From: an uncultured Clostridia bacterium
Lineage (GTDB): Bacteria > Bacillota > Clostridia > Oscillospirales > Ruminococcaceae
Assembly (NCBI GenBank): GCA_947177545.1
Contig: CAMWVF010000020.1
Location: forward strand, 1-10,159
Length of the DNA: 10,159 nucleotides
Direction: 5' to 3'
Shown: piece by piece, positions 456 to 2,389 of the stretch
Numbering within the stretch: position 1 is the stretch's first letter
How the letters are laid out: every line of letters starts with the position of its first letter
Position numbers and translations under genes: made by a program
Notes under the pieces: generated by a model
Database searches by the model: none
What the model saw: the letters and a program-made list of their open reading frames with translations, nothing else
Told to the model about the DNA's origin: nothing

Positions 456-1577
456 TCAGTAATTGGGGTAATTTCTAACATTATTCTGTTCCAGTCCCTT
501 GGGCTTTCTGCCGCTCATATCGTAAACGAACGCCAGAACCTGCGCGACCTCCTGATAAAAGTTATACGGTATTGCTCTGCCCAAGTCCACCGATTTATAA
601 AGACCTCTTGCCAGCGGCACGTTTTCAATGATAGCAACGCCGCTGTCCTGCGCCTTTTCTATAATTTTAAAAGCCAGATTATCCGCTCCCTTTGCAACAA
701 CAACTGGAGCAATGTCATTTTCTTCGTTATATCTTATTGCAACCGCAAAGTGGGTAGGGTTCCTTACAACAACGTCCGCAGTGGGGACGTCCTGCATCAT
801 ACGGTTCATAGCCATTTGCTGCTGCTTCTGACGGCGTTTGCTCTTGATCTGAGGGTCGCCCTCCATTTGCTTGTACTCTTCCTTGACCTCTTGCTTGGTC
901 ATTTTCATGTCCTTGTCAAACTTATATTTCTGGAACAGGAAGTCTATAGCGGCAACCGCCACGAAAACTACCGCAATTTTCATACATATAACGTAAATCG
1001 CGTCCATAGTATAAAGAAGCCCCGAGGACAGTTCCATTTGAAAAAGCCTTGCAAATTCAGGTATTCTTGAAGAGACCTCTTTGTAAACCACCACGAAAAG
1101 GATAACAAGCTTTACAACAGATTTGAATAGCTCAAAAATCGATGTGATAGAAAACATCTTTTTTATTCCCTGAAAGGGATTGAGCTTGCTTAACTTAAAC
1201 TGAAAGGATTTTTTTGAAAAGATAAATTTTGTCTGTATTCCCGTAACAATGACAGGTACAAGTATCGAAGCCAAAAGCACAGGTCCCGCTATGAAGAGAG
1301 TGGCTTTTCCCGTTTCGAGGATAAGCTTTGTGGAAACTCTCATTCCGTCAAGCTTGCCGTTCTCTATTCCGCCTCCCGCAATGCTGATCCAGTATGTCAC
1401 ACAGTCCGCAGCAGTTCGGTACATAAGCTTCGCCATTATTCGCAATATAAAGAAAACCAACAGTACAAACGCAGCCGTGACCACGTCCTTGCTCTGCATG
1501 ACGTTGCCCTCTTTTCGCTGCTCACGCAGCTTATGGGGGGTCGCCTTTTCGGTTTTTTCACCGGTGCTTTCTTGAAT
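456..1577 (-). CDS. flhB: Flagellar export switch protein FlhB, apparently started from an ATT codon
   Basis: FlhB is the membrane component of the export gate that switches secretion from hook to filament subunits after cutting itself at an NPTH motif. The protein has four hydrophobic segments, then a basic cytoplasmic linker (QIKSKRRQKQQQ) and NPTH at residues 273-276 of the long form, matching Salmonella 269-272. The first in-frame ATG (1499) would remove the conserved family N-terminus, but the frame stays open upstream and encodes EKTEKATPHKLREQRKEGN, typical of FlhB. Between an upstream in-frame TGA (1637-1635) and ATG 1499 there is no ATG, GTG or TTG. A strong AAAAAGGAG lies 7 bases before ATT at 1577-1575, giving 373 residues, the normal family length. 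I therefore call ATT the start. It begins 26 bases after the fliR stop. A sequencing error is the main alternative. Confidence 0.92.
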   Translation of the reverse strand: MQESTGEKTEKATPHKLREQRKEGNVMQSKDVVTAAFVLLVFFILRIMAKLMYRTAADCVTYWISIAGGGIENGKLDGMRVSTKLILETGKATLFIAGPVLLASILVPVIVTGIQTKFIFSKKSFQFKLSKLNPFQGIKKMFSITSIFELFKSVVKLVILFVVVYKEVSSRIPEFARLFQMELSSGLLYTMDAIYVICMKIAVVFVAVAAIDFLFQKYKFDKDMKMTKQEVKEEYKQMEGDPQIKSKRRQKQQQMAMNRMMQDVPTADVVVRNPTHFAVAIRYNEENDIAPVVVAKGADNLAFKIIEKAQDSGVAIIENVPLARGLYKSVDLGRAIPYNFYQEVAQVLAFVYDMSGRKPKGLEQNNVRNYPNY

Positions 1578-1584
1578 TTTAACA

Positions 1585-1593
1585 CTCCTTTTT
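1585..1593 (-). promoter_or_regulatory. Strong ribosome binding site that sets the flhB ATT start
   Basis: On the minus strand the sequence is AAAAAGGAG, followed by seven bases and then ATT (1577-1575). It lies in the short gap between the fliR stop (1604) and flhB. No standard start codon in the flhB frame follows at a usable distance, so this site is the main argument for AUU initiation. Confidence 0.7.
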
Positions 1594-1603
1594 AACGTCC
1601 GTT

Positions 1604-2389
1604 CTATTGGGCGTGCATAATTGTTATAAAGGATTCAAGGGTGTCAAGCCAGGTGTTCAGGTAACCGTCGATATATTCGGACAGCGGCACCGCTACCAAA
1701 AACAATATCGCAAAGCCGAATGCGACCTTCATCTGAATGTTTATCACCATTATCTGTATCTGCGGTACCGATTTCATCAGCACGCCCATGCAGAACTCAA
1801 GTATAAGCTCCGCTGCAATGACAGGCATTGCAAGCTTTATGACAATACCGATAAGCACTGAGAAATACGCCGCTATGCTGTACCCAAGATCGGGATTGAA
1901 CCCGCCGCTCCCTATGGGAAGTATATCGTAGGACAGCAAGAACAGCCTTATATATGACATATGGGAATTCGTCGCCAAAAAATAAAGATACAGCATAAAA
2001 CTGATGAACGAACCCATAATTGACATCTGCACATTGGTTTCAGGGTCAAAGACCTTAGCCATACCGAGACCCGACTGCATATCCATGACCTCGCCCGCCA
2101 CCTGAACCGAATAAAAGAACAGGTCGGTAATGAACCCGATAACAAGTCCGATAAAGGTCTCGCGCAGTATCATCATAAGGTATATGCCCGCCGTACTTCC
2201 CGTGTCCACAGGCTCGGGCTGGAGCACCATAATTATCACATATGTAATAAAAATGGATATTCCCACCTTTGCGATAACAGGAATGTTCCGTCTCGACAAA
2301 ATGGGGTTAAAGGCAAATATGCAAAGTATTCGGGCGAAAACCAGCAAATTGGTCTCAAAGCTCCGAAACAGGACAACAAAGAAATCCAA
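1604..2389 (-). CDS. fliR: Flagellar export gate protein FliR
   Basis: FliR is one of the three proteins (FliP5, FliQ4, FliR1) that form the helical export gate in the centre of the basal-body membrane ring. The 261-residue product has the usual family length and is almost wholly hydrophobic, with about six membrane segments. Family features include the early ARILCIFAFNPILSRRNIP, the METFIG-like stretch (MMILRETFIGLVIGF) and the central VQVAGEVMDMQSGLGMAKVFDP near residues 90-115. The start is TTG at 2389-2387: GGGGAGG lies about 9 bases upstream, overlapping the end of fliQ, and no ATG is near. The fliQ stop is only 18 bases away, so translation is probably coupled. flhB follows after 26 bases. 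Identity is certain; the TTG start is likely. Confidence 0.96.
   Translation of the reverse strand: MDFFVVLFRSFETNLLVFARILCIFAFNPILSRRNIPVIAKVGISIFITYVIIMVLQPEPVDTGSTAGIYLMMILRETFIGLVIGFITDLFFYSVQVAGEVMDMQSGLGMAKVFDPETNVQMSIMGSFISFMLYLYFLATNSHMSYIRLFLLSYDILPIGSGGFNPDLGYSIAAYFSVLIGIVIKLAMPVIAAELILEFCMGVLMKSVPQIQIMVINIQMKVAFGFAILFLVAVPLSEYIDGYLNTWLDTLESFITIMHAQ

Follow-up and report, generated by a model that had tools for sequence, protein, structure and literature searches.

The flhB locus and its start site

The window, that is, the whole stretch of 10,159 nucleotides that was analysed, is one entire contig of a MAG that is 55% complete and comprises 386 contigs. On its minus strand, fliR is followed by a frame that encodes FlhB, and the features around the beginning of this frame are the following:

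456..1577, minus strand: flhB coding frame as read from ATT, with 373 codons plus the stop
1575..1577, minus strand: ATT, putative flhB start codon, whose homologous codon is ATG in 17 same-genus relatives
1585..1593, minus strand: AAAAAGGAG, a Shine-Dalgarno (SD)-like site that ends 7 nt before the ATT
1572..1574, minus strand: CAA (Gln), flhB codon 2, which is a Pro or Ala codon in the 17 relatives
1497..1499, minus strand: first in-frame ATG of flhB, from which a start would entail the loss of residues 1-26, including EKTEKATPHKLREQRKEGN
1604..2389, minus strand: fliR, with a TTG start that is common to L122 of genome G001 and to L070

The protein of the flhB frame passes the equivalog model TIGR00328 with 385.4 bits (cut-off 349.25), which assigns it to FlhB, and reaches 403.4 bits against PF01312, in agreement with the claim of the earlier note that a conserved FlhB N-terminus is encoded upstream of ATG 1499. 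The frame is open on the minus strand from the TGA at 1637-1635 onward and, as had also been stated and was confirmed on the sequence, it holds no ATG, GTG or TTG between that stop and ATG 1499. The codons that lead up to the ATT are, in a first part, ATC CTT TAT AAC AAT TAT GCA CGC CCA ATA and, in a second part, GAA CGG ACG TTA AAA AGG AGT GTT AAA ATT. Two properties that a functional AUU start should have are found in this gene, namely the lack of a canonical codon at the homologous position and an SD at a workable distance, AAAAAGGAG being indeed placed at the 7 nt previously reported. The stop codon of fliR (TAG, 1606-1604) is located 26 nt upstream of the ATT.

The flhB start within the genus

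flhB is present in 18 of the 21 genomes of the window's genus, the window's own counted, and in each of the 17 relatives the start position is ATG, at exactly the codon that reads ATT in the window, so that the latter is seen in none of them. G001 is the nearest genome compared (89% identity between the FlhB proteins), and the 16 bases upstream of the start codon, AAAAAGGAGTGTTAAA, are identical in it and in the window; they are followed by ATT CAA GAA in the window versus ATG CCC GAA in G001, which means that codon 2 differs together with the start codon. Just upstream, an in-frame TAA in G001 corresponds to TTA in the window. A protein that is 94% identical to the window's FlhB, P0001, begins with MPESSGEKTEK (i.e., Met-Pro, as read from the protein record alone), and codon 2 encodes Ala or Pro in 107 of the 109 listed homologues having the N-terminal motif, the window encoding Gln. 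Furthermore, codons 7-26 accumulate, against the 17 relatives, 100 synonymous and 22 non-synonymous codon differences in sum, which indicates that the stretch before the next ATG is translated in the clade.

The ATG of the 17 relatives, the shared context in G001 and the Met-Pro of P0001 argue that the ATT occupies the homologous start position and that ATG is the ancestral codon. In the given sequence, ATT 1577 is therefore likely to be the position at which flhB starts, on the basis of homology and of the retained SD. Nonetheless, the rule in the genus is an ATG start for flhB, and since all 17 relatives follow it, the ATT is not a conserved regulatory start; it is a private change of the start codon and codon 2 in a single MAG of 55% completeness. 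The proposal of the earlier note that flhB starts at AUU consequently survives as regards the position and fails as regards conservation: the alignment of relatives' upstream regions that it had called for, in which a canonical codon at 1577 would speak against it, returned ATT in 0 of 17 and ATG in 17 of 17.

Other features of these genomes were recorded alongside. Within the genus, every one of the 18 fliR loci (window 2389 and L003-L019) has TTG or GTG as its start codon, and all 18 flhA loci (window 370 and L003-L019) have GTG, 15 of the latter without SD according to the script. A second, short match to the C-terminal part of FlhB is found in 16 of the 21 genomes (e.g., G000:C142:2226-2549).

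Near-cognate starts in infC and in other bacteria

AUU starts are very rare, and infC and pcnB of E. coli are examples of them; all 64 start codons were reportedly dealt with by Hecht et al. in 2017. The E. coli cases resemble the window's flhB in the combination of AUU with an SD and in a presumably low initiation, but they are established starts, whereas the window's flhB comes from one MAG and lacks conservation in the genus. infC served as a control within the genus itself. In 23 loci from 19 genomes (L203-L225), its start is ATA in 22 and ATT in one (L225), and GGGGGTG is found upstream of the start in 20 of the 23, although in some loci an in-frame GTG or TTG overlaps the SD and may be an alternative start. 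The ATA of these 22 loci suggests that the ribosomes of the genus can handle a near-cognate start. This is how a conserved near-cognate start looks in the genus, and the ATT of flhB is not of that kind.

Several systems offer a comparison. In Borrelia burgdorferi, the AUU start of pncA/BBE22 is backed by genetic, biochemical and structural evidence; as in the window's flhB, a conserved N-terminus had been missed owing to the AUU, leaving a truncated annotation, while the window's gene, unlike pncA, is known from sequence (PMC13398362). The RcsD-Hpt protein of Y. pestis is produced from a functional AUU with a predicted RBS, which is again the arrangement seen in the window, and replacement by AUG enhanced its function; that start, however, lies within a frameshifted gene and was tested by mutation (PMC10191623). 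In S. aureus, another Firmicute where near-cognate starts are accompanied by an SD, cvfC1 starts naturally at AUU with about 10% of the AUG level, and infC and ccpN start at AUA with an extended SD, the first of them having its counterpart in the ATA of infC in the window's genus; the cvfC1 start is nevertheless conserved among staphylococci, in contrast to the ATT of flhB in its genus (PMC13009471).

flhB starts across the wider family

flhB was sought in 297 genomes of the family, a sample taken from a larger group; 101 of them matched, five belonging to the window's genus. In 93 of the remaining 96 the FlhB-like match was more than a short one; starts were read in 91 of these and parsed in 89. 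Under a rule-based assignment, which covered 65 of the 91 loci and parsed 62, the start is ATG in 36, TTG in 16, GTG in 8 and none of these in 2, so that TTG or GTG starts flhB in 24 of 62 parsed loci. With start codons picked by eye, ACG or CTG occupies the start position in 4 of the 89 loci from other genera:

L240 (genome G243): flhB start ACG
L269 (genome G035): flhB start ACG, with an in-frame GTG overlapping the SD
L257 (genome G061): flhB start CTG, with canonical codons upstream of the SD
L239 (genome G287): flhB start CTG, with an in-frame GTG overlapping the SD

The last three are less certain because of the GTG over the SD or the canonical codons upstream of it. Among congeners seen with flhB, the CTG start recurs in none of three in g42 (all TTG) and not in the single one in g43 (ATG), and G151, a congener of G035, has ATG.

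For comparison, the starts of three other flagellar genes, fliQ, fliR and flhA, were examined, each in 38 loci of the wider family and 18 of the window's genus (one flhA is absent), and only one of 167 has no canonical codon in place (fliQ of L304). Non-canonical starts thus amount to 5 of 107 for flhB, window included, versus 1 of 167 for these neighbours (p = 0.035, or 0.076 excluding the window), an excess that is suggestive only, having been judged by eye and on partly different loci. The fliQ in question (L304, genome G151) shows an apparent CTG start after AAGGGAGG on a 2.69-Mb contig, with an in-frame TTG upstream of the SD. As a separate observation, in L054, L295 and L305 flhB is in frame with flhA and separated from it by a single TAG, readthrough of which would fuse FlhB to FlhA. 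Regarding the literature, no paper on flhB start codons was among the matches listed, nor does the accessible part of PMC9307174 contain anything on them, and no title among the matches listed for ACG start codons concerns a bacterial chromosomal gene starting at ACG.

The clearest of the non-canonical cases belongs to genus g65, in which 7 of 11 genomes have flhB. The start is ACG in four of these seven species (G243, G314, G317 and G318; loci L314, L315, L317 and L318), ATG in G084 and G176 and TTG in G316, and G314 is a single-contig genome. G243 and G314 lack any canonical codon in the stretch from the upstream in-frame stop to the ACG, and the next ones after it come at residue 72 and residue 35, respectively; in G317 and G318 a single in-frame ATG or TTG precedes the flhB SD, at a place that differs between the two. 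Codons 2-34 carry 4 synonymous and 0 non-synonymous changes between G314 and G243, and 5 and 0 between G317 and G318, and the two sub-groups have different SD contexts, with a nucleotide identity of 66-67% between them (66% for G314 versus G317). The best public match to the FlhB of G314 is P0121 (291 aa, cluster with 67 members), which aligns to 82% of that protein with about 100% identity and begins at its residue 63, as would be expected if gene callers miss the start. On the other hand, the N-terminus is kept in 116 of the 120 homologues listed (115 by motif and P0139 by eye), which makes a canonical start the rule around g65 too. The pattern of ACG followed by (Ala/Pro)-Gly-Glu-Lys-Thr, which is blind to N-termini like that of G035, matches in 3 of 396 family genomes, all of them in g65. 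The ACG common to four g65 species is apparently a real start, judging from these sequence comparisons, and it is a more interesting lead than the ATT of the window.

Reliability of the sequence around the start

To place the change in context, 40 contigs of the window's MAG (448,814 bases) were compared with 80 contig stretches of G001 (985,116 bases), keeping 128 gene pairs, of which 109 were usable. The 87 ATG starts chosen in G001 align in the MAG to 82 ATG, 2 GTG, the ATT of flhB, one AGG and one gap, and among these last three an SD is present only at flhB. In the mirror control, 85 ATG starts chosen in the MAG align in G001 to 83 ATG, one ATA without SD and one gap with SD, the latter due to an apparent one-base frame change in G001; this broken start region (1 of 85) implies that MAGs of such kind can err near starts. 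A further candidate for a start loss in the MAG, at L104 (TTG to ATA), was dropped, as an ATG further upstream is common to both genomes.

Private changes at otherwise invariant sites were counted in seven genes of the contig, on 6 to 17 loci per gene, giving 7 for the window and 0-21 (median 5) for 16 relatives; flhB alone has 3, codon 1 excluded, which is also within the relatives' range. Neither general error nor decay is therefore visible in the compared genes of the contig. The clustering of differences at the start is not exceptional in itself either, since 24 clusters of three differences in four bases occur in the 5,189 bases aligned to G001. The bases ATTCAAG (1577-1571) and CTTGAAT (1639-1633) are reverse complements and pair with each other in the predicted fold (z -1.21); an origin of the lesion by template switch was nonetheless discarded, because the length of this inverted match, 7 nt, ranks second among the 24 three-in-four clusters and is hence nothing out of the ordinary.

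Alternative explanations for the ATT codon

Inefficient initiation at AUU 1577, with AAAAAGGAG as the SD-like site that has been kept, yielding full-length FlhB after a private loss of the ATG, is the explanation that we favour, with a probability of about 0.5. It has to be weighed against a base or assembly error, in which the true genome would have ATG (probably ATG CCN) and the consensus of the MAG would be wrong over some 4 bases. That the ATT is private to one fragmented MAG, while the relatives keep ATG and P0001 has Met-Pro, is what an error would produce, and the joint change of the start codon and codon 2, with Gln at an Ala/Pro position, suits a local one; the comparable MAG G001, moreover, has its own broken start region among 85. 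However, the compared genes of the contig look clean (open frames, private changes in the span seen among relatives), flhB alone among the 87 ATG starts shows a loss with an SD in place, and an ACG start of the same gene is common to four species elsewhere in the family. An error is accordingly a serious contender, although on the unlikely side. A real loss of the start that largely silences flhB in a non-motile lineage or variant, with the AUU not meaningfully used, would equally appear as one private change; initiation at AUU is poor (about 10% of AUG for cvfC1, PMC13009471), and the open frames of the adjoining fliR, fliQ, fliP, cheY and fliY would fit a recent loss. The retention of the SD and the count of only three private changes in flhB, within the relatives' range, count against such silencing and render it improbable.

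Two explanations dispense with the ATT. Translation from ATG 1499 would produce an FlhB without its first 26 residues. In its favour, GAGGG is found 7 nt ahead of this codon, and among the 120 FlhB representatives listed, 9 have their first residue at the corresponding Met (MQSK or MQSR). Database starts, though, are choices of gene callers, and those nine may reflect missing starts, such choices or cut contigs alike, as far as protein records alone tell. The stretch that would be lost is highly conserved, and a structural paper puts the FlhB N-terminus, at the export gate, near the point where the cytoplasmic domain begins (PMC7064499); a start at 1499 is thus very improbable. The accessible part of PMC3708937 shows no N-terminal truncation of FlhB. 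Even less credible is a single FliR-FlhB protein, for which ribosomes would have to shift by -1 within the 28 nt (1634-1607) where the two open frames overlap. The flhB frame does reach back to 1634 without a stop, in contrast to G001 with its TAA just upstream of the SD, and a natural FliR-FlhB fusion is described for Clostridium (PMC7064499; model NF009411). Yet no slippery site of the X XXY YYZ type was found by eye in the overlap, that same TAA forbids such a fusion in G001, and the window has both an SD and the homologous start position.

As regards the favoured reading, i.e., initiation at AUU 1577, the ancestral ATG would have been lost by a small private change, from ATG CCC to ATT CAA judging by G001. 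Provided that the sequence is correct, AAAAAGGAG would most likely position 30S subunits for initiation on the AUU, with a fraction of the efficiency of AUG and perhaps aided by fliR translation that terminates 26 nt upstream, and full-length FlhB would still be made, presumably at a lowered output. The ACG and CTG starts of flhB in the wider family raise the odds that the ATT is real.

Implications for flhB and its family

If the ATT proves to be an error, the case shows that a start codon taken from a single MAG needs to be checked against the reads; if it is real, it adds one more of the rare AUU starts, on a flagellar assembly gene. Beyond the window, the frequency of weak flhB starts (TTG, GTG) in the family, together with the ACG common to g65 species, suggests that this gene is tolerant of poor starts. 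The idea of the earlier note that a poor start may hold flhB expression down would draw indirect support from this level, given TTG or GTG in 24 of the 62 parsed loci and the ACG of the four g65 species, the window's own genus keeping to ATG. A more far-reaching and doubtful reading is that the flhB start acts in the family as a translational brake kept weak by evolution, TTG and GTG being common and ACG, CTG or ATT appearing in several lineages; the ACG of g65 would then be real, FlhB, of which the export gate has few copies, would be held scarce at initiation, and the ATT of the window would be a fresh instance of it. Very weak starts of flhB would, in addition, account for truncated FlhB entries. 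More broadly, the comparison singles out flhB of this family as tolerating very weak starts, among them the ACG of four species, a tolerance that is, to our knowledge, unusual for bacteria.
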